Source: a virus. Taken from it: a stretch of DNA of 40,657 bases. The position numbers were made by a program, and so were the translations under genes. The stretch is from IMG/VR virus record IMGVR_UViG_3300046535_000659, positions 1 through 40,657 of that record; one strand, given 5' to 3'. Each line of letters opens with the position of its first letter. The first letter of the stretch is position 1. The notes beneath the pieces are model-generated. The model had not been told where the DNA came from and did no database searches. It worked only from the letters and a program-made list of their open reading frames with translations. Positions 2,738 to 40,324 of this stretch are shown here, piece after piece.

Positions 2738-2974
2738 TCATGCCTCCTGAATGTGGAATTTGCGGCGCTGCGCGGGACTGAAATCCTCGGCGCAGGAATA
2801 ACGAGCGAGCAGGCTTTCAGCGACGTAGTCCACATAGGACTTGAGCGTCCCTTCCATGCGGCAGAGTTCAAGGTGTTCGGCCTCCTCATCCATCTGGTCT
2901 TCGAACATCTCGTTCAATGCGTCGAGTTCCTCTTCTGTGTAGCCTTCCGTGTTATCCATCGTGAAGCGGTCCAT
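2738..2974 (-). CDS. Acidic hypothetical protein (78 aa)
   Basis: Start at 2974 is preceded by aggaggaag; the longer upstream extension of the frame lacks such a site. The N-terminal half is strongly acidic (EELDALNEMFEDQMDEEAE), the C-terminal half more mixed (YSCAEDFSPAQRRKFHI). No domain is recognised. It sits in the middle of the leftward trio and its end carries the ribosome site of the next gene. Confidence 0.65.
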   Translation of the reverse strand: MDRFTMDNTEGYTEEELDALNEMFEDQMDEEAEHLELCRMEGTLKSYVDYVAESLLARYSCAEDFSPAQRRKFHIQEA

Positions 2975-3026
2975 CTCTTCCTCCTCTGATGCCGCTACTG
3001 CGCCCCGTGAGGCGCAGGGTGTGGGA

Positions 3027-3233
3027 TCAGCGTCCCGCCTCGAAGCTGCGGCGGATGGTGTCGATGTGGTGGCCACCGTAATAGGCCATGCAGACGAGCT
3101 TGTGCCGCAGCGCGTCCCAGGTCAGTTCAGGGTGCTCGTAAGCAAGAAGCTTGACGCAGGGCAGGATATAGCCACCTCGGCGGCAGTTGATTTCGAGGAT
3201 GGTGCTGATCTGGCGGCTTCGCTCGATGGTCAT
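3027..3233 (-). CDS. Hypothetical protein (68 aa), first gene of leftward trio
   Basis: A compact protein with Cys at positions near 17, 26 and 48 and the run GGYILPCVKLLAYEHPELTW. No family recognised. A GGGAG ribosome site precedes the ATG, and a good sigma70-type promoter reads into it from 3261-3290. Confidence 0.65.
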   Translation of the reverse strand: MTIERSRQISTILEINCRRGGYILPCVKLLAYEHPELTWDALRHKLVCMAYYGGHHIDTIRRSFEAGR

Positions 3234-3260
3234 CTGCGTGCTCCCGTGTTTCGATGAACC

Positions 3261-3290
3261 ATCTATTCACCCGCGAGGTGCGCGTGTCAA
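3261..3290 (-). promoter_or_regulatory. Promoter for the leftward trio
   Basis: On the minus strand TTGACA (plus coordinates 3285-3290) is followed after 17 bases by AATAGA, or after 18 by ATAGAT (3261-3267). The perfect -35 and correct spacing just upstream of the 3233 start make this a convincing vegetative-type promoter. It faces away from the holin-like gene at 3343. Confidence 0.6.
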
Positions 3291-3297
3291 CAACAAT

Positions 3298-3316
3298 ATG
3301 CACCACGAAGGTGCAT
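3298..3316. promoter_or_regulatory. 19-bp palindrome between divergent genes (possible operator)
   Basis: ATGCACC-acgaa-GGTGCAT has perfect 7-bp arms and lies between the leftward promoter and the rightward gene at 3343. It could be a dimeric repressor site or a small hairpin in the leader of the 3343 message. No second copy was noticed. Confidence 0.45.
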
Positions 3317-3342
3317 GACTGATATGCAGTATTGGAGCCGTC

Positions 3343-3672
3343 ATGAACGACCAATTGATCGTCCTCATCCGCTACGCCGTCACGGGCGTGGTCGCCTTCG
3401 GTGCCGGGCGGCACTGGTTTACTGCTGCTGACGCGACCGCCCTGGACGCAGTCCTCATCAACGCTGCCGTTGCAATCGCCGGGGCCATCCCGACGGTCAT
3501 TGGCGTGGTCACGTCGAGCAAATCCGCCAAGGTCGCCGCCGTTCAAGCCATGCCCGACATGGAGGTCGCGACATCCAATCAGGCGGTCAAAGACGCCGTG
3601 CCTGGCGTCACCATGGCCAAGCCCGGTGCGGCTCAAGTCGTGGTGCCCGCGCCCATTGCACCCAAGCCCTGA
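3343..3672 (+). CDS. Membrane protein, putative holin (109 aa)
   Basis: The start is preceded by ggag. Two hydrophobic segments are visible, residues 5-22 (LIVLIRYAVTGVVAFGAG) and 33-57 (with ALDAVLINAAVAIAGAIP), followed by a Lys/Ala/Val/Pro-rich cytoplasmic-like tail. This is the layout of two-helix phage holins of the Pam3 gp28-like kind, which form lethal lesions in the inner membrane at lysis. No endolysin is seen nearby, so the holin assignment rests on topology and on the adjacent coiled-coil membrane protein. Confidence 0.55.
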   Translation: MNDQLIVLIRYAVTGVVAFGAGRHWFTAADATALDAVLINAAVAIAGAIPTVIGVVTSSKSAKVAAVQAMPDMEVATSNQAVKDAVPGVTMAKPGAAQVVVPAPIAPKP

Positions 3673-3686
3673 TCGGGGCGGGGGCA

Positions 3687-3950
3687 ATGACAAACCAAGA
3701 ATACAGTTGGTTGGAAAACAGCCAGCTAGTGCTTCAAAGCTTGCGTCGTCTCGACAAGGACATCAAAGAACAGGATGCTCGCAGAGAGCGCTATCATGAT
3801 GAAATGCGGGCCGAGATATCTGCCCTCAGATCCGAGGTCGCAGCGCTCAAGCAACAATCGCGCAGCCAAGCCGGAGTGATCGCATTTCTGGTCGCGCTTG
3901 GAACCAGCATCACCGCGGCGATCATCAGCGGCCTGATAGGTCGGCACTGA
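3687..3950 (+). CDS. Coiled-coil protein with C-terminal membrane anchor (87 aa)
   Basis: Residues 15-60 form a charged coiled coil (DKDIKEQDARRERY and EISALRSEVAALKQQ) and residues 64-84 a single hydrophobic anchor (VIAFLVALGTSITAAIISGL). This resembles XhlA-type hemolysin/holin partner proteins. It follows the putative holin by 14 bases with a G-rich ribosome site, so both are likely one lysis or membrane unit. Confidence 0.6.
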   Translation: MTNQEYSWLENSQLVLQSLRRLDKDIKEQDARRERYHDEMRAEISALRSEVAALKQQSRSQAGVIAFLVALGTSITAAIISGLIGRH

Positions 3951-3956
3951 AGGCAA

Positions 3957-3992
3957 GGTGATGCGGGCCGGGGCAAATCGGCCCGCATCGCT
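3957..3992 (+). terminator. GC-rich hairpin, weak terminator candidate
   Basis: GATGCGGGCC (3960-3969) pairs perfectly with GGCCCGCATC (3980-3989) around a 10-base loop, and wobble pairs extend the stem outward. It lies just after the stop at 3950. No T-run follows, so it may be a processing or stability element rather than an intrinsic terminator. Confidence 0.45.
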
Positions 3993-9508: not shown

Positions 9509-9906
9509 TAGGCGGCCTCTCTCGCATCGTCGGCGAAGTCAACGCCGTTCTGGGCGCCCCAGGAATAAAGCAATTCGATCATGTTCGACATCTCCTCTAT
9601 GCCAAGGTCAGACGAGCTTTGACCGATAGGCAGGAAGCCAGTTCCATCGAGCGATGGCACAAAGCGCGTCTCACGGCCCAGAGCGTGCAAGAAAATCACC
9701 TTCCAGTCTCCGGGCGAGTAGCGCTGACCATGATGCTCTTTCTGGACGCTGATATGCGTCAGCAGCACCCACATAAGCGCGTTTTGCGGTAGTGTGCGCT
9801 TGGATGCCTTGTATTCAATTCTTGTCCCATCAGGAGCGCGTCGCACCCAAGCGATGGCACGCTCCCGATCGGCCGGACGGTGGATGACGATTAACGCCCT
9901 GCCCAT
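9508..9906 (-). CDS. ninB: NinB/Orf-type recombination protein
   Basis: The 132-residue protein has the NinB signature: LPQNALMW (about residues 39-46) followed by SPGDWKVIFLHAL, a RFVPSLDGTGF turn and the helix NMIELLYSWGAQNGV. In phage lambda this protein (Orf) binds single-stranded DNA and SSB and substitutes for host RecFOR in loading recombinase. Its place beside ERF supports a role in phage homologous recombination. Full-length for the family. Confidence 0.85.
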   Translation of the reverse strand: MGRALIVIHRPADRERAIAWVRRAPDGTRIEYKASKRTLPQNALMWVLLTHISVQKEHHGQRYSPGDWKVIFLHALGRETRFVPSLDGTGFLPIGQSSSDLGIEEMSNMIELLYSWGAQNGVDFADDAREAA

Positions 9907-10109
9907 GCCGGGGCCTCAACGGGGCGCTCGTCCTTCGGCTTGGCCTGGAGCGAGATCCACTTCCCCTTAGCGCCTTCCTTCGTCCAGCCCGAAAGCCAGT
10001 AGGCTCGACCATCAATCATGATGGAACCTTGAAGATTCGGGTGCGTGTCCTTCTCGCGCTTCTCGTTTTTGAAGAGCGAGCCTTGGCCTTCCTTGAGTTC
10101 GTAAGCCAT
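9891..10109 (-). CDS. Small conserved phage protein (72 aa) next to ERF
   Basis: The pattern GSLFKNEKREKDTHPNLQGS, then AYWLSGWTKEG and KWISLQAKP is typical of small phage proteins distantly like DUF736, often found beside single-strand annealing genes. It abuts the ERF stop at 10110 and overlaps NinB by 16 bases. Possibly a DNA-associated accessory protein; not proven. Confidence 0.7.
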   Translation of the reverse strand: MAYELKEGQGSLFKNEKREKDTHPNLQGSIMIDGRAYWLSGWTKEGAKGKWISLQAKPKDERPVEAPAWAGR

Positions 10110-25322: not shown

Positions 25323-28070
25323 ATGGCCCGACGCACGACTACGCTCGCCAAGAGAGATGACAATCCTGGCGACGAAGAAGCCGCGCGTTGGAAACACGAA
25401 ATCGAGCAATTCGAGGAGGACGACAACGCTTGGCAGAAGCGCGGCGATGACATCGTCCTGCGTTACCGGGCTCCAATGCCGGATGGCCAAGGGGGCATAA
25501 CCGCGGTTGGCGGATTCGCGCATAGCCGCGGCTACAACATCCTGTGGTCGAACGTCCAGACGCTGAAGCCTAGCCTCTATAGCCGTGAGCCCGTGCCGAT
25601 TGCCGAGCGACGCTTCCTCGACAAGGATGTCGTCGGCCGGGCCGCATCTCAAATCCTCGAGCGCGCTATGCGCTACGAGATGATGGATTGCGGCTTCCAC
25701 GAGACGGTCACCAAATGTATATACGATTACCTGCTTCCCGGTCGTGGGACGGCGTGGCTGCGCTATATTCCTGCCTTCGGGCCGGCATCGAGCCCAGCCG
25801 AGCATGGCGATGATCAACTCGCCGAGGACGATGGCGAGCCGGTCGACGAGGATGGCTATGAGGACCGCTCGCCCGAGCGTGACGAACATGACGAGAGTGA
25901 CGAGCGCACCTACGAGAGCCAGTCCGAGAAGCTGATCGGCGCAAGCATCGCCGTCGACTATGTCAACTGGAAAGACTTCGGCCACACGAAGGCGAGGACG
26001 TGGGAGGAGGTTGAGGCCATCTGGCGCCGCCGCTATATGAGCCGCGACGACCTCATCGATAACTTCGGCAAGGAGATCGGCAAGGACGTTCCGCTCGATC
26101 GCGTGCCGGATGACAAGAACAGGTCACAAGTCGCAGACCGGATGAAGGACGGGTTAAAGAAAGCCACCGTCTACGAAATCTGGTGCAAATACGATCGTAA
26201 GGTGTATTTCGTCGCGAAGGGCTTTGATCGGCTACTCGAAGAGCCGAAGGACGACCCGCTGAATCTTGAAGGCTTCTGGCCATGTCCTCGTCCGCTCTAC
26301 GCGACGATGACGAATGACACGCTAAAACCCATTCCGGATTTCGCAGAGTATCAGGATCAGGCGATCGAGCTCGACAACCTGACGCGGCGCTGCGATGCGC
26401 TCTTAGCGGCGCTTCAGGTCCGGGGCGTCTACAATAGTGCCAACAAGGAACTAGCGCGGCTGCTCGACGAGGGCAGCGAGAACCGCATGATCGCCATTAA
26501 GGACTGGGCGGGATTTGCGGAAAAGGGGGGCCTGAAGGGCGCGGTGGACTTCATGCCGATCGAGATGATCGGCTCGACCTTGATGGAGCTGTTTCAGGCT
26601 AGGGAACAGATCAAGAAGGATCTCTACGAGATCACCGGCTTGGCCGATGTGATCCGCGGGCAGTCTGACCCGCGTGAGACGGCCGAGGCGGTGCGTACCA
26701 AGGGCCGATTTGGCAGCATGCGACTGCAAGACCGGCAGGCCGAGGTTGCTCGTTTTTGCCGCGACATCATTCGCATGATGGGCGAGATTATCGCCGAGCA
26801 TTTCCCGGATCAGACGCTTATCGACGTGTCGGGGATCATGTATGATGAGGGCGTCGGGCCGATGATGCCGACGCCTCCGGCGAAGCCTGACGAGCAGGCT
26901 CAGAATCCGATGATGGGCCACAATGGTGGCCCGCCGATGAATCCTGCGCAAGCAGGCGTGCCAGGCCCCTCAGGGATTAATACCGCTCCGAGCGGTGTTG
27001 CCGCGCAGACGAGCAATCCAGTCCCCGGGGGGCCGTTCCACCCACCACAAGGCGCCGCTGTTCCGCCGGGGGCTATGCCGCCCCCCGGAATGCCGCCTTC
27101 GCCATCGCAGGGGTTGCAGCCGCCGGGTTCACCGGGTGCTCCTCCCTCCCCGCAACAGCCAGGCATGGCTCCTCCTGCGATACCTCCGCAGCTTCAATAC
27201 GCCATGGACATGGCGCAGTATGAGCAGAAGCGCCAGGCCGCGGAGATCGAGAAGCAGCAGCTCGTCGAGAGGGCGCTCGGCCTGCTTCGCCAGGACAAGC
27301 TACGCGGCTTCAGGATCGACATCGAGACGGACTCGACGCTCAATCAGGACGCCAACGAGGACAAGGCGGCCCGCGTCGAGTTCATGACGGCCATGTCGGG
27401 CATGCTTGAGAAAGGGATGCAGGCCGGCATGGCTGATCCCGAGATTGTCCCGCTGATCGGCAAGATTATCTTGTTTACGGCTCGCGGGTTCAGAGCTGGG
27501 CGTGACCTCGAAAGCGCGATCGAGGAATACGTCGACCAGAAGGAGAAGGACGCCAAGAAGTCCGCCGGGCAGCCGAAGCCGCCTGATCCGAAGGTCCAGG
27601 CAGAGCAGATCAAGGCCGCCGCGGAGGTGCAGAAGGCCAAAACCGACGCGCAATCGAGCGCCGACGACAACCAGCGGGCCATGGCTCAGAAGGCAGCGGA
27701 TGCTCAGATCGCCCAGCAGAAGGGCCAGATGGAGCAGCAGCAAATGGCGGCCGACTTCAAAATGAAGGAAGCCGAGCATCAGATGCAGATGGCGCAGCTT
27801 CAACTAAAGATGCAGCTTGCCGAGAGGGAACTCGGCGTTAAACTACAGATCGCCGAGCAAGAGCATGCGCACAAGATGCAGGCGAGCGACCGTGAGCATC
27901 AGCAACAGATTGCCTTGGCTGGAATGAATATGCAGGCCACGCATCTCGGGCATCAGCAGAAGTTGGAACAGGCGGGCGTGGGCCATGAGCACAAGCTCGA
28001 GGCCGGCGAGATGGCGCATGAACAGGCGATGGAGGCCGCGAAGGCTCAGCCGACTGGAGCGGGGGCATGA
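25323..28070 (+). CDS. Portal protein with long C-terminal extension (915 aa)
   Basis: The gene follows terL and precedes scaffold and capsid. Its first 520 residues are helical and charged (ARWKHEIEQFEEDDNAWQKR at the start, YEITGLADVIRGQSDPRETA near residue 440, the usual portal wing/stem region). After about residue 515 comes a Pro/Gly/Met-rich linker (about 515-620) and then a very Gln/Lys/Met-rich coiled coil to the C-terminus with repeated Q-M-Q motifs. Portals form the 12-mer through which DNA enters; a long C-terminal barrel or tail is known from P22-like phages. No clear Shine-Dalgarno is present before ATG 25323. Confidence 0.8.
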   Translation: MARRTTTLAKRDDNPGDEEAARWKHEIEQFEEDDNAWQKRGDDIVLRYRAPMPDGQGGITAVGGFAHSRGYNILWSNVQTLKPSLYSREPVPIAERRFLDKDVVGRAASQILERAMRYEMMDCGFHETVTKCIYDYLLPGRGTAWLRYIPAFGPASSPAEHGDDQLAEDDGEPVDEDGYEDRSPERDEHDESDERTYESQSEKLIGASIAVDYVNWKDFGHTKARTWEEVEAIWRRRYMSRDDLIDNFGKEIGKDVPLDRVPDDKNRSQVADRMKDGLKKATVYEIWCKYDRKVYFVAKGFDRLLEEPKDDPLNLEGFWPCPRPLYATMTNDTLKPIPDFAEYQDQAIELDNLTRRCDALLAALQVRGVYNSANKELARLLDEGSENRMIAIKDWAGFAEKGGLKGAVDFMPIEMIGSTLMELFQAREQIKKDLYEITGLADVIRGQSDPRETAEAVRTKGRFGSMRLQDRQAEVARFCRDIIRMMGEIIAEHFPDQTLIDVSGIMYDEGVGPMMPTPPAKPDEQAQNPMMGHNGGPPMNPAQAGVPGPSGINTAPSGVAAQTSNPVPGGPFHPPQGAAVPPGAMPPPGMPPSPSQGLQPPGSPGAPPSPQQPGMAPPAIPPQLQYAMDMAQYEQKRQAAEIEKQQLVERALGLLRQDKLRGFRIDIETDSTLNQDANEDKAARVEFMTAMSGMLEKGMQAGMADPEIVPLIGKIILFTARGFRAGRDLESAIEEYVDQKEKDAKKSAGQPKPPDPKVQAEQIKAAAEVQKAKTDAQSSADDNQRAMAQKAADAQIAQQKGQMEQQQMAADFKMKEAEHQMQMAQLQLKMQLAERELGVKLQIAEQEHAHKMQASDREHQQQIALAGMNMQATHLGHQQKLEQAGVGHEHKLEAGEMAHEQAMEAAKAQPTGAGA

Positions 28071-29243: not shown

Positions 29244-29870
29244 ATGATCCCGACGGGCTATCGCGACGCAGATGGGCTGCTCTGGCCCGCAGATGATGTC
29301 GAATGCCTGCGCGCCGCGCGAGCGCAGGTCGCCGACCTTGAGCAGGTCTATCCCTACTGCAAGGGGTTTAGAGTCGCGGTGCAGGCGGGCGGGAATTGCG
29401 GCGTCTGGCCGGCGGCTCTGATCAAGCGCTTTGAGACGGTCTACACGTTCGAGCCTGATCCGACCAACTTTCGCTGCCTTTGCGTGAATGCACCGCATGA
29501 AAATGTGTACAAGTTCAACGCCGCGCTCGGCCAGTTTCACGAGACGATCGAGCTGAGCCGGAAGGCTGATAATGCCGGGGCGCATTATGTTAGCGGGGCA
29601 GGCGCGATCCCCACCCTGCGCATAGACGACCTGGCACTGAAGGCCTGCGATCTCATCTGCCTCGACATCGAGGGCCGGGAGTATGCTGCCATCATGGGCG
29701 CCATGGGCACGATCCAGACCCATAAGCCGGTCATCGTGCTCGAGGATAAGGGCTTGAGCGCGAAATACGGCATCGCAAAGGGCTATGTTAGGGATGTGAT
29801 CGTTGGGCTTGGCTACCGGGTTGAGGGTCGATTGCGCCGCGATATCATCTTCGCGCCGACCGGAGGTTGA
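29244..29870 (+). CDS. FkbM-family methyltransferase (208 aa)
   Basis: AdoMet-binding pattern VQAGGNCGVWP (about residues 50-60), YTFEPDPTNFRCL (about 69-81) and CLDIEGREYAAIM (about 138-150, IEG motif) is that of FkbM-like O-methyltransferases. These commonly methylate sugars or glycolipid and peptide groups. It sits between structural genes rather than with a biosynthetic cluster, suggesting modification of a virion component or surface glycan. No good ribosome site is seen before ATG 29244. Confidence 0.8.
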   Translation: MIPTGYRDADGLLWPADDVECLRAARAQVADLEQVYPYCKGFRVAVQAGGNCGVWPAALIKRFETVYTFEPDPTNFRCLCVNAPHENVYKFNAALGQFHETIELSRKADNAGAHYVSGAGAIPTLRIDDLALKACDLICLDIEGREYAAIMGAMGTIQTHKPVIVLEDKGLSAKYGIAKGYVRDVIVGLGYRVEGRLRRDIIFAPTGG

Positions 29871-32249: not shown

Positions 32250-32276
32250 AAGGCGCTCTTCGGGGCGCCTTTTTTA
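32250..32276 (+). terminator. Rho-independent terminator with UUCG loop
   Basis: AAGGCGC pairs with GCGCCTT (32250-32256 and 32265-32271), extended by T-G and C-G to a TTCG tetraloop, followed by a T-run (32270-32275). It ends the long rightward packaging transcript and overlaps the stop of the leftward gene at 32274. Confidence 0.85.
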
Positions 32277-32531
32277 TTGGAGCCCCAACCGCTCGATCAG
32301 AGCGTTGTCCCTGATGGACATCTCGGCGATCTCACCTGTGCGGTTACGCAGGGTTACCCTGACGATCTCCGAGAGGCTGGGCCAGGTGCCGCCCCGAAAG
32401 ATCTCGGGCATGCCTCGCATTCCCCATGGGATCTCGGGCTCGAACAGCTTGACGGGCATCAGGCTCGACGCGCGCACGATCGCGGGAGCCGCGAACAGAC
32501 CTAAGAGAAAACCGCGCCGGGCAAGGACCAT
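32274..32531 (-). CDS. Tat-signal protein carrying a copy of the capsid N-arm (85 aa)
   Basis: MVLARRGFLLGLFAAPAIVR is a twin-arginine-like export signal with likely cleavage after AIVRA. Residues 51-82 align without gaps to residues 4-35 of the major capsid protein (22 of 32 identical, including LSEIV, TLRNRTGE and NALI). The gene runs against all neighbours, between a terminator and the scaffold gene, as a moron-like insert would. No Shine-Dalgarno is seen; a possible promoter sits so close that the message could be leaderless. Function unknown. Confidence 0.6.
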   Translation of the reverse strand: MVLARRGFLLGLFAAPAIVRASSLMPVKLFEPEIPWGMRGMPEIFRGGTWPSLSEIVRVTLRNRTGEIAEMSIRDNALIERLGLQ

Positions 32532-32536
32532 GGCGT

Positions 32537-32566
32537 TATATAACCCCTAAGGAGCCTGTATGGCAA
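32537..32566 (-). promoter_or_regulatory. Possible promoter for the Tat-signal gene
   Basis: On the minus strand TTGCCA (32561-32566) is followed after 18 bases by TATATA (32537-32542), inside the palindrome GTTATATAAC (32535-32544). Transcription would start about at the ATG of 32531. The same AT-rich spot lies just before the scaffold ribosome site on the plus strand. Confidence 0.4.
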
Positions 32567-33792
32567 TCGATGACCAGGCTGTTGAGGCCACAACCTCAAC
32601 CGCAACGGATACCTCTGCGCCCGTTACGACCGAAGCGCCAGAGTACGAGACGTCTTCCCGATCCGATCCCGCAGAATCTCCCGACGACAAGAAGCGGTCG
32701 GACCTCAATAAGGCTCTAAAGGCCGAATTCGAAAAGGTTAAGCGTGAGCCATCCGAGGCTCGTCGCGAGGCCGCTGCCCGCCGGGCACGCGAGGAGCAGA
32801 CCGGTAAATTCGCCCCCGAGAAGGGACAAGTTTCAGCGAAGGTCGAGCCGGCCGCTAAGGCCGCTCCTGACGCTTCCACCTCTCCCGGTCAGCAGGCCAC
32901 GAGTGAACCCGCAAAGGTCGCCCCACAAGGCGCCGCGGCAGCTCCGGCCAGCTTGTCCAAGGACACCAGAGCCATCTGGGACACTCTCCCCGAGGTCGTT
33001 CGCAACGACATCATCAAAAGGGAAAGCGACACCCAGCGTGGCGTCGAGCAACTCAAGCAACGATACCAGACGATCGACGAAGCCTTAGCGCCTTACCGCC
33101 CCCTGCTACAACAGGTCGGCAAGACTGAAGGCGATGCCGTTAAGCAGCTCTTTGCTTGGCATCAGGCGCTCGCCGGCCCAAACAAGGCCCAGGCATTCCA
33201 GGCGCTCGCTCGTAGTCACGGTTTCGACCTTTCAACCCTTGCCCCCGCTAGCCAGACTAGCCAGCAGCAGCAAGATCCGAATGATCCCCGTGTCCAACTC
33301 CAACAGGCGTTGCACGGGACTGTAAGCCCGCTTGACCAAAGACTGTCGGCCCTCGAGCAACAACTCGTCCGCCGGGAGCAGGCTCAGCTTCAAGACGAGA
33401 TCGGTTCATTCTCTAAGGATAAGCCCCACTTCGACCGTGTCCGCTACGCCATGGGCCAGATGATGGCTTCCGGCTATGCGACAAGTCTGCAAGACGCCTA
33501 CGACAAGGCGGTATGGGCCGATCCCGAGATGCGCACCGAGCTCCTGTCAGCAGAGCAGGCCAAGCGTGAAGCCGAAGCCCAAGCCGCCCAGCAGGCTCAA
33601 GCAGCCAAGGCAGCACAGGCTGAAGCCGATCGCAAGGCGAAGGAACGCGAAGCCATGGAGAAGGCACGTAGGGCCATGAGTCCTCGTAGTTCATCTCCCA
33701 TGGGCTCTGCCGTTCCCAAAGCATCAGGCGGCAAGTCTATTCGGGAATCGTTAGCCGAGGCACGCCGGCAAGTCTCAGGGGGCTCCATTTAA
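32560..33792 (+). CDS. Scaffold (prohead assembly) protein, 410 aa
   Basis: AAGGAG precedes ATG 32560. The N-terminal 130 residues are acidic then Ala/Lys/Pro-rich and disordered; the middle holds WDTLPEVVRNDIIKRESDTQ and a helical core; the C-terminus (about 330-400) is a long Ala/Glu/Lys coiled coil ending in basic residues. This layout and the position right before the capsid gene fit a P22-type internal scaffold that guides capsid assembly through its basic C-terminus. Confidence 0.75.
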   Translation: MAIDDQAVEATTSTATDTSAPVTTEAPEYETSSRSDPAESPDDKKRSDLNKALKAEFEKVKREPSEARREAAARRAREEQTGKFAPEKGQVSAKVEPAAKAAPDASTSPGQQATSEPAKVAPQGAAAAPASLSKDTRAIWDTLPEVVRNDIIKRESDTQRGVEQLKQRYQTIDEALAPYRPLLQQVGKTEGDAVKQLFAWHQALAGPNKAQAFQALARSHGFDLSTLAPASQTSQQQQDPNDPRVQLQQALHGTVSPLDQRLSALEQQLVRREQAQLQDEIGSFSKDKPHFDRVRYAMGQMMASGYATSLQDAYDKAVWADPEMRTELLSAEQAKREAEAQAAQQAQAAKAAQAEADRKAKEREAMEKARRAMSPRSSSPMGSAVPKASGGKSIRESLAEARRQVSGGSI

Positions 33793-33806: not shown

Positions 33807-34850
33807 ATGGCCTTCCCAGGCCTCAGCGAAATTGTCACGACCACTCTCCGCAACCGCACTGGAGAGCTCGCCGACAACTTCACCCGCAACAACGCGCTCA
33901 TCGCGCGTCTCAAGAGCCGCAACCGGATTAAGACTTTCTCCGGCGGCCGTACTATTGTGCAAGAGTTGGCGTATGCTAACAACAGCACATTTCAGTGGTA
34001 TTCTGGCTATCAGACTCTGAATATCGCCCCCTCGCAGACCTTCACGTCTGCGGAATACCCGATCCGGCAGGCCGCTATTGCCGTGTCGATCTCCGGCCTC
34101 GAGGAGTTGCAGAACTCCGGCGAGGAAGCCATCATCGACCTGCTCGAGTCGCGTATCGAGAACGGTGAGGAAACCTTCCTCAACGGTCTGTCGCTCGGCA
34201 TGTATGGCGATGGTAGTGTTACCGGAACCATCAATGGACTTCAGAATTTGGTGAATACTTCGCCGACTTCTGGCGTCATCGGTGGTATTGACCGTGCGAC
34301 GTGGACCTTCTGGCAGAACTTTTACTTCTCTGCGTCCGGTTCGGCCGGCACGCATGGCGGTGGAGCGGCCACGACTTCCGCGAACATCCAGAGCTACATG
34401 AACCGGGTCTACGTTTCGATCGTTCGCGGTCGCGACAAGCCCGATTTGATTGTCGCCGACAACAACTACTGGAGACTGTATCTCGAGAGCCTCCAGGCGA
34501 TCCAGCGTATCACCACGACCGACAAGACGCCGGATCTCGCCGAGATCGGCTTCGACTCGGTGAAGTACATGAACGCTGACGTGGTGTTGGATGGTGGTTT
34601 CCAGGGCTTCTCGTCCGATCCGTTCACTGCCGACTATTCCGGCGGCAACGCGGTTGGCGGTGCTCCGAGCAACACCATGTACTTCCTGAACACCCGCTTC
34701 ATCCATTGGCGCCCCCACGCTGAGCGTGACATGGTTCCTCTGGACCCGAAGCGCTTCAGCGTGAACCAGGACGCGATGGTCGCCCTCATGGGGTGGGCCG
34801 GCAACATGACGCTGAGCTGCGCGTTCCTTCAGGGCGTTCTCTTCGCCTAA
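33807..34850 (+). CDS. Major capsid protein (347 aa)
   Basis: Located directly after scaffold. It begins MAFPGLSEIV, TTTLRNRTGELADN; the body has FTSAEYPIRQAAIAVSISGL and DLLESRIENGEETFLNGLSL, and a C-terminal segment NTRFIHWRPHAERDM typical of HK97-fold coat proteins with the arm at the N-terminus. Codons favour the host, as for abundant proteins. A copy of its N-arm occurs in the leftward gene at 32274-32531. No sign of truncation. Confidence 0.85.
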   Translation: MAFPGLSEIVTTTLRNRTGELADNFTRNNALIARLKSRNRIKTFSGGRTIVQELAYANNSTFQWYSGYQTLNIAPSQTFTSAEYPIRQAAIAVSISGLEELQNSGEEAIIDLLESRIENGEETFLNGLSLGMYGDGSVTGTINGLQNLVNTSPTSGVIGGIDRATWTFWQNFYFSASGSAGTHGGGAATTSANIQSYMNRVYVSIVRGRDKPDLIVADNNYWRLYLESLQAIQRITTTDKTPDLAEIGFDSVKYMNADVVLDGGFQGFSSDPFTADYSGGNAVGGAPSNTMYFLNTRFIHWRPHAERDMVPLDPKRFSVNQDAMVALMGWAGNMTLSCAFLQGVLFA

Positions 34851-36350: not shown

Positions 36351-38408
36351 ATGGACCTTGCTGAACAGAACTACCCCGAGCCGCGGCGCTATCGCGTGGT
36401 GACGGCGTTCAATGACGAGGGTTTCGAGCTCTACGGCAAGCGGATGGTCGAGGGCTATCTGCGCTACTGGCCGAAGAGCGTTCCGCTCATCGTCTATCCG
36501 CAGGGATTAAGGGATACGGATCTCGACTGGCTCGATGATCAAGGCGTGGAGCTTCGGGATCTCCCGGATTGGTGGGGGGCTTTCATCGCGCGCCATGATG
36601 ATAACCCGCTAGCCAAGGGCAACTTGCCGACACATTACGATTTCCGCTGTAACGCAGTGAAGTGGGCATGCAAGCCGGCGGCAATCGCGGATGCTCTTGA
36701 GCGGCTGATCGATGGCGTTCTGATCTGGATTGATGCCGATACGGTGATGCGTAAGCCCATCACCGAGGAATGGCTCGACGGGCTGTTTCCCAACCCCGAC
36801 AACGGCATGGCGTGGCTAGATCGGGAAGCCAAGGTGCAAGAGGGCAGCTTCTTGATGTTCCGGGTCGCGTTCTCGGAGGCCCATAGCATCGTCGGCGAGT
36901 TCCGGCGCCTCTACGAGACCGACGAGGTGTTCCAACTCAAATACACCGCAGACAATTACGTACTACAGCATGTGGTCGACAAGATGGGCCTGACGCCCGT
37001 CTCGCTCTCGGGTTCCGGGCGCCACAACAACGAGCCTTTCAATGAGGGGCCGTTGGGCGACCGCATCCTCCACCTCAAGGGGCCTATGGCGAAATATCGG
37101 TCTGCCCCGCGCATCTCGGACGCGTACCGGGAGATGCAGGTCAAAATGCATGCCGAGCAGCCGCTCTACGGGACGTATGGGCGGCGGTTCGCGCGGCAGC
37201 TAGAGGATATCGCCATCGAGCACCGATGCGCCTCCTTGCTCGATTACGGGGCAGGGAAGGGCACTCTGAAGCAGGCGCTCAAAGACTCGAGTTGCCGGCA
37301 GCTAACCGACATCAGGGAATATGACCCCGCGGTGTCGGGCATTGACGGCGAGCCGGAGCCCGCCGACCTCGTTGTCTGCGGCGATGTCCTCGAGCATGTC
37401 GAGGCCGACAAGATCGCCGCCGTCCTTGAGCATATCCGCCGGCTGACGCTGCGTGTCGGGTTCCTCGTCATCCACACGCAGGAATCGACCAAGCAGATGC
37501 CGACCGGCGAGAATGCGCATATCCTGATGCGCGATCCCGACTGGTGGGCGATCACACTCAGTCATTATTTCGAACTGCGCAAGTTCGATGTCGGCGTACG
37601 CGAGATCTCGGTCATCGTCTCGCCGAAGCTCTACGAGCCGAATGTCATTACCTTTGCTGCCCTCGACGACGGCATCAGGCTGCGCCAGGCTCGCGCGAAT
37701 ATGCGGCGCGTGCCGACGAGGCTTGAGGAGGCCCCGCCGCACGATCGGACTGCGGTCATCGTCTGTTATGGGCCGTCGCTCCGATATACCTGGCCGCTGG
37801 TCAGCCGATCCGGCGACAAGGCAGACGTGTTCTCGGTATCGGGCGCGCACAAGTTTCTGATCGACCATGGCGTTATCCCGCACATCCATATCGATTGCGA
37901 TCCGCGCGAGCATAAGGCGAAGCAGTTCGGCGAGCCGCATCCGCAGGTCCAGTACTGGCTCGCCTCTTGTGTGCATCCTGCCTATCTCGATCGGCTAGAG
38001 GGTCGCGCCGTCGCCCTCTGGCATTTGTGGAACGGCGACGAAACGAAGGGGCTGTTCGACGAGCTCGAGCCGGGCGAGTGGCTTGTGCAGGGCGGGGGGA
38101 GCGTCGGGCTGCGGGCAATGCCGCTGCTCTATGCGATGGGATACCGCGACTTCGAGATCCACGGCATGGATTGCTCCTATGCCGGGGGTGAGAAATACGC
38201 CGGGCAGCATTTCGGCAAGGCCCATCACGACCTCAGGATCAGATGCGGCGACCGCTGGTTCGATACCGGCGCGAGCATGGTCGCCTATGCGCAGCAATTC
38301 TTCATCACCCGCGCTGTGATGCATGACGCGACCGTTCGCCTGCATGGCGATGGGCTGCTTCAGCATATGGTGAGAATGCAGGGGGAAGGCGACGCGGGCC
38401 GGGCTTGA
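36351..38408 (+). CDS. Three-domain glycan enzyme: glycosyltransferase, methyltransferase, DUF115
   Basis: Residues 15-275 are a glycosyltransferase-like domain with WIDADTV (about 126-132). Residues 285-440 are an AdoMet methyltransferase: LLDYGAGKGTLKQAL (about 291-305) and DLVVCGDVLEHVEADK (about 338-353). Residues 465-670 match the DUF115/Maf or MptE-like fold: AVIVCYGPSLRYTWPLVSR, FSVSGAHKFLIDHGVIPHIH, LVQGGGSVGLRAMPLLYAMG. DUF115 proteins include flagellin glycosyltransferases. One 685-residue polypeptide could thus add and methylate a sugar. Such fusions occur in some phages; the target here is unknown. It is the second gene of the cassette. Confidence 0.75.
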   Translation: MDLAEQNYPEPRRYRVVTAFNDEGFELYGKRMVEGYLRYWPKSVPLIVYPQGLRDTDLDWLDDQGVELRDLPDWWGAFIARHDDNPLAKGNLPTHYDFRCNAVKWACKPAAIADALERLIDGVLIWIDADTVMRKPITEEWLDGLFPNPDNGMAWLDREAKVQEGSFLMFRVAFSEAHSIVGEFRRLYETDEVFQLKYTADNYVLQHVVDKMGLTPVSLSGSGRHNNEPFNEGPLGDRILHLKGPMAKYRSAPRISDAYREMQVKMHAEQPLYGTYGRRFARQLEDIAIEHRCASLLDYGAGKGTLKQALKDSSCRQLTDIREYDPAVSGIDGEPEPADLVVCGDVLEHVEADKIAAVLEHIRRLTLRVGFLVIHTQESTKQMPTGENAHILMRDPDWWAITLSHYFELRKFDVGVREISVIVSPKLYEPNVITFAALDDGIRLRQARANMRRVPTRLEEAPPHDRTAVIVCYGPSLRYTWPLVSRSGDKADVFSVSGAHKFLIDHGVIPHIHIDCDPREHKAKQFGEPHPQVQYWLASCVHPAYLDRLEGRAVALWHLWNGDETKGLFDELEPGEWLVQGGGSVGLRAMPLLYAMGYRDFEIHGMDCSYAGGEKYAGQHFGKAHHDLRIRCGDRWFDTGASMVAYAQQFFITRAVMHDATVRLHGDGLLQHMVRMQGEGDAGRA

Positions 38409-39530: not shown

Positions 39531-39920
39531 ATGGCACTTGCAACCGACCTCATGGGGCTGGGTGACAGCGCGGCGCATGCCGGGCGTCTCGGCCACGCGA
39601 TCGCGACTCTCACCGGCAGCGGGACGACACAGGCGGGCACGCCGACAGCGCTCGTGCAGACGATCACCATTGGCACGCCCACGACCGGGCAGACGGCTTA
39701 TCTGTTGCCGTCCGCCCCCCCGATGGCGAAGGAATACTATTTCTTCAACGCCGCCGTCGGTGCCGACAGCGCCCTCATCTATCCGCGCACTGGCGGCATG
39801 ACGCTCAACGGTTCGACCTCAAGCGCGGTGACCATCGCGCAAAACAAGGGGTGCATGTTCATGTGCGTTGCGAACTCCGGCGGCACTGCGCCGCAGTGGG
39901 TCGCGATCAACAGCGCATAA
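39531..39920 (+). CDS. Small beta-rich structural protein, paralogue 1 (129 aa)
   Basis: MALATDLMGLGDSAAHA and a Thr/Gly-rich body (TLTGSGTTQAGTPTALVQTI, KEYYFFNAAV, TGGMTLNGSTSSAVTIAQNK) ending in APQWVAINSA. It is a paralogue of the next gene. Expected to be a beta-sandwich virion component such as a decoration or head-fibre protein. Confidence 0.6.
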   Translation: MALATDLMGLGDSAAHAGRLGHAIATLTGSGTTQAGTPTALVQTITIGTPTTGQTAYLLPSAPPMAKEYYFFNAAVGADSALIYPRTGGMTLNGSTSSAVTIAQNKGCMFMCVANSGGTAPQWVAINSA

Positions 39921-39931
39921 GGGGAACCCAC

Positions 39932-40324
39932 ATGGCACTTACAAGCGACCTTATGGGTCTTGGGGATTCCGGTCCTCACGCTACCCTCATCGGCCGCCAG
40001 ATCAGCGGGCCGACCGCAGGCGTTGGAACCACTCAGGCCCTCGGCGTGGTCATCGGGACATCGGTCTTCCTCGCCAATTCCACGAGCGGCAAGACCGGGT
40101 TCATCCTGCCGCCTTCGGCGGTCGTATTTCCCCCGGCGAAGGAAATTTACTTCTTCAACACGGGCGACACGACTGCTCTCGTCTATGCACCGACCGGCGG
40201 CGCGACGCTCAACGGCTCGACCTCGGCCAGCGTTTCAGTATCGGCCAACAAGGGGGCGAGCTTCCAGCTTGTCTCGGGTTCAGGTGGTGCGGCCCCGCAA
40301 TGGGTCGGTATCGTGAGCGCATAA
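39932..40324 (+). CDS. Small beta-rich structural protein, paralogue 2 (130 aa)
   Basis: ATG 39932 after AAGGGGA. It mirrors the preceding gene: MALTSDLMGLGDSGPHA, KEIYFFNTGD, TGGATLNGSTSASVSVSANK and final APQWVGIVSA. Recent tandem duplication followed by divergence is the simplest explanation. Confidence 0.6.
   Translation: MALTSDLMGLGDSGPHATLIGRQISGPTAGVGTTQALGVVIGTSVFLANSTSGKTGFILPPSAVVFPPAKEIYFFNTGDTTALVYAPTGGATLNGSTSASVSVSANKGASFQLVSGSGGAAPQWVGIVSA

Follow-up and report, generated by a model that had tools for sequence, protein, structure and literature searches.

Small phage genes from environmental contigs join an export-type signal to a piece of a virion protein, and the piece is of the same type as the virion protein that the phage itself makes. 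One such gene lies in the window, the 40,657-nucleotide stretch analysed here (positions 1 to 40,657 of IMG/VR virus record IMGVR_UViG_3300046535_000659), and carries a copy of the arm of the capsid protein encoded nearby. A literature search that took in little subscription content and no bioRxiv preprints returned no description of such signal-virion fusions, which apparently form an undescribed phage protein family.

The fusion gene and its neighbours

The gene runs from 32531 to 32274 on the minus strand, starts with ATG and encodes 85 residues (MVLARRGFLLGLFAAPAIVRASSLMPVKLFEPEIPWGMRGMPEIFRGGTWPSLSEIVRVTLRNRTGEIAEMSIRDNALIERLGLQ); an identical gene is found in IMG/VR contig 3300047319_000713 (L001). 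Residues 1-28 (32448..32531, minus strand) form the signal module, a twin-arginine-type signal (RRGFLLGLFAAPAIVRA) comprising a twin-arginine motif, a short hydrophobic stretch and APAIVRA, with the phage-specific SLMPVK (SLMPV in its shorter form) behind the probable cleavage site. The linker, residues 29-49 (32385..32447, minus strand), has no recognised source. Residues 50-82 (WPSLSEIVRVTLRNRTGEIAEMSIRDNALIERL; 32286..32384, minus strand) copy the N-terminal helical arm of the major capsid protein and align without gaps to its residues 3-35 (33813..33911, plus strand), with 22 of 33 residues and 66 of 99 bases identical. Over residues 51-82 the count is 22 of 32, just as the earlier note had it, and two further results agree: the best ungapped BLOSUM62 score of arm against capsid is 104, the maximum in 300 shuffles being 45, and profile positions 7-38 of PHROG 9953 (major head protein) match residues 51-82 (E 0.013 with the whole protein, 0.005 with the C-terminal half alone). 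Chance similarity is ruled out by the shuffles, the PHROG match and the recurrence described below. The protein is a capsid fragment and not a full-length HK97-fold phrog_9953 capsid, as only about the first 35 of the 329 profile positions are present. Helices are predicted at capsid residues 6-27 and 30-37, so that the copied segment would correspond to the whole N-terminal helical arm of the model. A single ORF thus holds an export-type signal and a capsid arm, the fusion that had been proposed from the first inspection.

The capsid gene itself (33807..34850, plus strand) encodes 347 residues with an HK97 fold; it matches phrog_9953 (E 7e-106) and NCBIfam NF033394, capsid_maj_Podo (E 6e-94), and its predicted model, of moderate confidence (mean pLDDT 69), matches HK97 folds. 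Divergent from the fusion gene lies a probable scaffold gene (32560..33792, plus strand), so assigned from composition and from its place just upstream of the capsid gene, where related phages keep a homologue; family searches with its product gave no match. The portal protein (phrog_12082) is encoded at 25323..28070 on the plus strand. The stretch from portal/g28067 to scaffold is a variable zone, and in three related phages the fusion gene lies there. Being small, accessory and provided with a signal, its product shares a trait with superinfection-exclusion proteins, which are small exported or membrane proteins of phages. The terminator placed beside the gene by the earlier note exists as a hairpin (32250..32271, plus strand) between the 30069-32225 gene and the fusion gene, but it is a consensus match at chance level, one such hairpin being found against 1.2 in shuffles. 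A promoter consensus search near the fusion gene gave no promoter-like site, and its ribosome-binding site, judged by eye, is weak.

Several other genes of the window deserve mention. The product of the 30069-32225 gene, which lies in the variable zone, is 718 aa long and contains LPD23, a large polyvalent protein associated domain; few of the related phages compared have a counterpart. Just upstream is an FkbM methyltransferase gene (29244-29870), and at 36351-38408, downstream of the capsid gene, there is an MptE-like plus methyltransferase gene; the two could form a cassette for sugar or methyl modification within the late-gene region. The adjacent genes 39531-39920 and 39932-40324, whose products match each other at E about 1e-25, look like a tandem duplication.

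The signal module in phages and bacteria

Scans of IMG/VR recovered 34 loci with the 85-aa protein, 44 with a profile of the signal half and 106 stretches with a degenerate DNA pattern, 80 of which were kept. Combined, they yield 111 distinct sequences with the module motif, all from environmental phage contigs and including a few truncated ones such as a cut copy of the window gene. Their consensus reads RRxFLxGLxxLxAAPAIVRASSLMPVK, and the signal, the cleavage-site region and the first mature residues are the best-conserved part of the family. The arginine pair, which belongs to an SRRxFLK-like N-terminal motif as in Tat substrates, is invariant in the module alignment and present in 86 of 86 distinct matches to a DNA pattern that does not cover it. 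Codons at the conserved residues vary synonymously, so conservation acts at the protein level, and a role of the module as a DNA element is ruled out.

A short hydrophobic region with an A-x-A-type cleavage region, a trait of Tat substrates, is present, and APAIVRA is conserved; in the window copy the hydrophobic stretch is about three residues shorter, a form common to L092, L128 and L148. In an alphaproteobacterium, ordinary periplasmic binding proteins open with a signal of this type (..RRSIVLGAMATPFATPAIVRAQSLP; ..RRTFNTGLAAAASLLAAPAIVRAQGG). Going by established knowledge of such signals, RR and APAIVRA suggest Tat-type export in alphaproteobacteria, and the earlier description of the first residues as an export signal is supported by the conservation of the module in phage relatives, by its arginine pair and by the likeness to these host proteins. 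The full module with SLMPV was found in one of 289 alphaproteobacterial genomes, namely the one used as centre, and in two contigs in a GTDB-wide scan with a strict pattern. Being nearly absent from bacterial genomes, it is a phage feature, and an origin of the gene as a host gene is ruled out on these counts. Isolate phages yielded no significant BLAST match to the module, an absence that is weakly tested because this BLAST masks low-complexity sequence.

In related phages the portal gene is followed by a small gene, the variable zone and then the scaffold and capsid genes, an arrangement that is conserved. Among 80 loci with a related capsid the module occurs in three: L177 (the twin of the window), L190 and L218. 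The fusion gene is therefore a rare accessory. The earlier note had considered that all relatives might lack one half or the other: the signal half is retained in relatives, while the same arm is not, a different virion piece of the phage's own capsid type standing in its place. The fusion genes of L190 and L218, which run in the direction of the late genes, carry a tail-collar-like piece; when its source gene was sought on these short contigs, the fusion itself was the only collar match. None of 80 phages with an L066-type capsid has the module. Most IMG/VR records are fragments. The fusion gene lies on the strand opposite to the capsid gene in the window, L048, L175, L095, L054 and L066, and on the capsid-gene strand in L044, L100, L113, L169 and L136; it therefore does not belong to any single operon. 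Two or three fusion genes per phage are present in L048, L054, L055, L070 and L052, those of L052 (IMGVR_UViG_3300021432_000009) being three genes with one N-terminal and two C-terminal P22-type coat pieces.

The capsid genes of this group show interruptions of their own. In L190, which is related to the window phage, a group I intron (9656-9985; RF00028, 83 bits) interrupts the capsid gene after residue 23, an insertion that falls within the copied arm region. A longer interruption (L191:1134-1847) sits at nearly the same place of the capsid gene and has no Rfam match.

Virion pieces behind the signal

Where a source can be recognised, the C-terminal half nearly always comes from a virion protein, mostly the major capsid protein, also portal and tail collar, and some halves are mosaic. 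A PHROG scan of 99 C-terminal halves gave described families that are almost all virion (tail collar/tail fibre, major head, head-tail adaptor, distal tail), the sole exception being a weak match to 'amidase' (E 0.013). Pfam matches were Collar (four, best 5e-15), GP7 capsid (three), Head-tail_con (two) and Gp23 (one), other matches being weak and single. In a further search, with the 2,249 ORFs of 150 aa or more on the same contigs as targets, 18 halves had a match at E<1e-3 (reversed queries gave one), and the best match was a capsid protein in 16 of the 18, although capsids make up 1.7% of residues (p 9e-27, the members not being fully independent). This search and the capsid-family searches below took the place of an earlier own-contig control made without composition correction, which was too noisy (13 of 98 fragments against 55 of 665 control ORFs at E<1e-3). 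The matched capsids belong to phrog_283 (P22-type), 212, 138 (T4 gp23-type), 334 and a 4523/371 type. No pieces of terminase, polymerase or helicase were seen among the sources.

The captures are in the native frame. A search of the other five frames of the C-half DNA found no out-of-frame capsid capture, the matches there being self-overlaps, mirror-image antisense ORFs and isolated weak matches. Random capture of late-gene DNA is weakened as an explanation by this result together with the capsid bias. Among the mosaics, C-terminal capsid and portal pieces are joined in L175 and portal and middle capsid pieces in L105, each in that order, and in L048, at 5964, the portal-like motif YGRSPAMD comes after a capsid piece. 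The portal segment is common to L175 and L105 (PF12236 positions about 260-289), and to L048 by motif. Capsid segments recur as well: residues 3-59 of the P22-type coat in L044, L111, L052 and L100, and residues 286-340 of the phrog_212 capsid in L048, L175 and L095. The regions used comprise N-arm, insertion domain (P22-type), middle and C-terminus, with no single epitope.

For about two thirds or more of the C-terminal halves no source was assigned, among them those of the ten-member VIPF group (L147, L097, L132, L089, L172, L141, L109, L055, L051 and L130). In that group the half is conserved and 110-130 aa long (VIPFEPYMLVRG...SGLQTAAIESRADEKA); structure prediction and fold search gave no source for it, the fold matches being weak and non-significant. 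A different arrangement is seen at L165, where a signal fusion (2804-3289) lies directly upstream of a gene for a 227-aa protein (3292-3975) and resembles part of that protein (E 2e-9).

The type of the fragment follows that of the phage's own capsid. Whole records behind 24 loci were searched for four capsid families (phrog_283, 212, 334 and 9953-like). Capsids of phrog_283 were found in exactly L052, L111, L126, L044, L100 and L113, all of which carry P22-type fragments; phrog_212 capsids in L095, L048, L175, L148, L136, L068 and L064; phrog_334 capsids in L169, L151 and L152; and phrog_9953-like capsids in L110, L043 and L150. L105, a 7-kb piece, shows its fusion alone in the phrog_212 search. 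When 23 fragments, including that of the window, were scored against 20 capsid proteins of the four families, the phage's own family scored best for 21, the exceptions (L064, L151) having noise-level scores with every family. The z-scores agree for 11 re-tested weaker or predicted fragments, the weakest being L150 (3.2). For nine records (L052, L111, L126, L095, L148, L152, L110, L043 and L150) the capsid family was predicted before it was looked up, from capsids of other contigs (by eye only for L043 and L150), and all nine predictions were correct; the stretch retrieved for L095 already included part of its capsid.

Within the family, about half of the fragments match the resident capsid best or nearly as well as the best, so that derivation of every fragment from the resident capsid holds only in part. 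In L095, L175, L048 and L126 it is not the closest family member. The fragments are thus either old, independently diverged or passed between phages that share a capsid type.

Both halves look to be selected as protein. When close relatives are grouped and their values pooled, pN/pS is 0.14-0.20 in the signal half and 0.35-0.43 in the C-terminal half; between L045 and L081 the latter has dN 0.06 and dS 1.08. The arm copy of the window stands at pN 0.25 and pS 0.58 from its own capsid relative, in line with the earlier view that the duplication is not very recent. A comparison with 78 capsid arms (76 at the NALI position) shows that the copy retains most of the positions conserved among them. 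It has in common with its own capsid the isoleucine of NALI, which is rare (one of 76 capsid arms; leucine in 74 of 76), and it carries V, E and M at T10, D21 and N22, positions invariant or nearly so in the 78 arms, where these residues are absent from all capsid arms compared. The pattern fits a copy taken from its own capsid lineage that is no longer a capsid arm. The suggestion of a relic of an older capsid gene is not supported: native-frame capture and purifying selection, which also acts on the arm, argue against it, and so does the recurrence of the arrangement with portal and tail-collar pieces and with no fewer than five further capsid families (phrog_283, 212, 334, 138 and the 4523/371 type).

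Possible roles of the fusion proteins

Both roles named in the earlier note, a decoy or an assembly-interference factor, would fit these observations. The C-terminal half may be a mimic or bait, which would make the protein a decoy that carries an export tag and occupies whatever recognises capsid proteins; this is the reading we prefer, though we offer it tentatively and regard it as possible but doubtful. In the infected cell the bait would bind a factor that detects capsid or portal protein as it is newly made. A host defence sensor triggered by capsid proteins is the most plausible such factor, because bacterial sensors of this type are known: CapRel is directly activated by a capsid protein and Lit by the Gol peptide of T4 gp23 (PMC9712102). 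As a fragment without capsid-invariant residues (T10, D21 and N22 here), it would bind without triggering, and the Tat signal would keep the captured partner at the inner membrane or export it as a folded complex, hitchhiker-like. Tat export of signal-less partners by hitchhiking (PMC4273604) would offer a route for removing a bound sensor. The variety of the fragments, the presence of up to three genes per phage and their absence from close relatives would then reflect different sensors in different hosts. Recurrence, capsid bias, family matching, native frame and purifying selection count for the decoy, as do the recurring portal segment (L175, L105, L048) and the placing of a host-like signal on a module that is nearly phage-only. 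Against it count the many capsid regions used, with no single epitope; the fact that the own capsid is not always closest (L095, L175, L048, L126), so that the target need not be the resident capsid; the lack of any obvious need for an export signal on a cytoplasmic decoy; and the many C-terminal halves with no recognised source, including the VIPF group. A wider claim would be a general 'bait-and-export' counter-defence, in which many unrelated phages use a Tat signal on a non-triggering piece of their own virion protein type to bind host sensors of capsid, portal or tail protein in the cytoplasm and pull them to or across the inner membrane; we consider it unlikely.

Other roles can be weighed against the same observations. 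The pieces are assembly parts (capsid N-arms, C-terminus, P22-type insertion domain, portal), the window copy would be a complete predicted N-terminal helical arm, and several phages' pieces fit the capsid of another family member better than their own, as would suit a piece that poisons or diverts the assembly of co-infecting phages or satellites, or tunes that of its own phage, with the signal tethering subunits at the inner membrane. Tail-collar pieces do not fit such interference, however, the phage would risk poisoning itself, and a cleavable-looking signal is not usually for tethering; we consider it rather unlikely. An exported mimic might instead act in the periplasm or outside the cell, for example on superinfection, on lysis timing or on particle capture after release, which would agree with the strong conservation of the signal with its cleavage-site region and first mature residues. 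Yet the capsid and portal of an infecting phage remain outside the cell and we know of no periplasmic partner for pieces of either, so we assign this role a low probability.

The signal/SLMPV module might also be the active part, for example on the Tat machinery or the membrane, the C-terminal half being filler from nearby late genes. These halves are indeed highly diverse, less constrained than the signal (0.35-0.43 against 0.14-0.20) and changed between related phages, but the strong capsid bias of their sources, without terminase, polymerase or helicase pieces, their purifying selection and the lack of out-of-frame captures make filler an improbable description. A non-functional relic or a chance similarity is more improbable by far: the segment is short, no consensus promoter-like site was found and the ribosome-binding site is weak by eye, but shuffle test, PHROG match, selection and recurrence across capsid families all stand against it.

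Known systems resemble the fusions in part. P4 Sid, the PICI Cpm proteins and PLE TcaP are phage-satellite proteins that redirect helper capsid assembly; they are small and act on the major capsid protein, but have no export signal and, to our knowledge, are not known as copies of capsid segments. Fv1 (from gag) and truncated env proteins such as suppressyn are host restriction factors from viral structural genes, in which part of a viral structural protein likewise serves as a gene of its own, and the env cases carry a signal peptide; these are animal host genes directed against retroviruses, whereas the present gene is carried by a phage and matches the capsid type of that phage. In T4 Gol/Lit and CapRel-SJ46, too, a capsid protein or a short segment of it is the recognised part (PMC9712102), but there the segment of the real capsid triggers defence, whereas here a diverged segment lies in a separate gene behind an export signal. 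In Tat hitchhiking complexes such as E. coli PaoABC, one partner has the twin-arginine signal and the rest travel along (PMC4273604); these are host enzymes there, not phage fragments, and co-export in the present case is a proposal.

One export signal with a virion piece of the own type has been kept or rebuilt in phages of six capsid sequence families. We know of no function that predicts such a joining. If the pieces are baits, each fusion would point to a stretch of capsid or portal to which a bacterial protein responds by recognition, and the family could serve as a map of capsid-sensing defences yet to be described; if they act on assembly, the fusions would be natural dominant-negative inhibitors.
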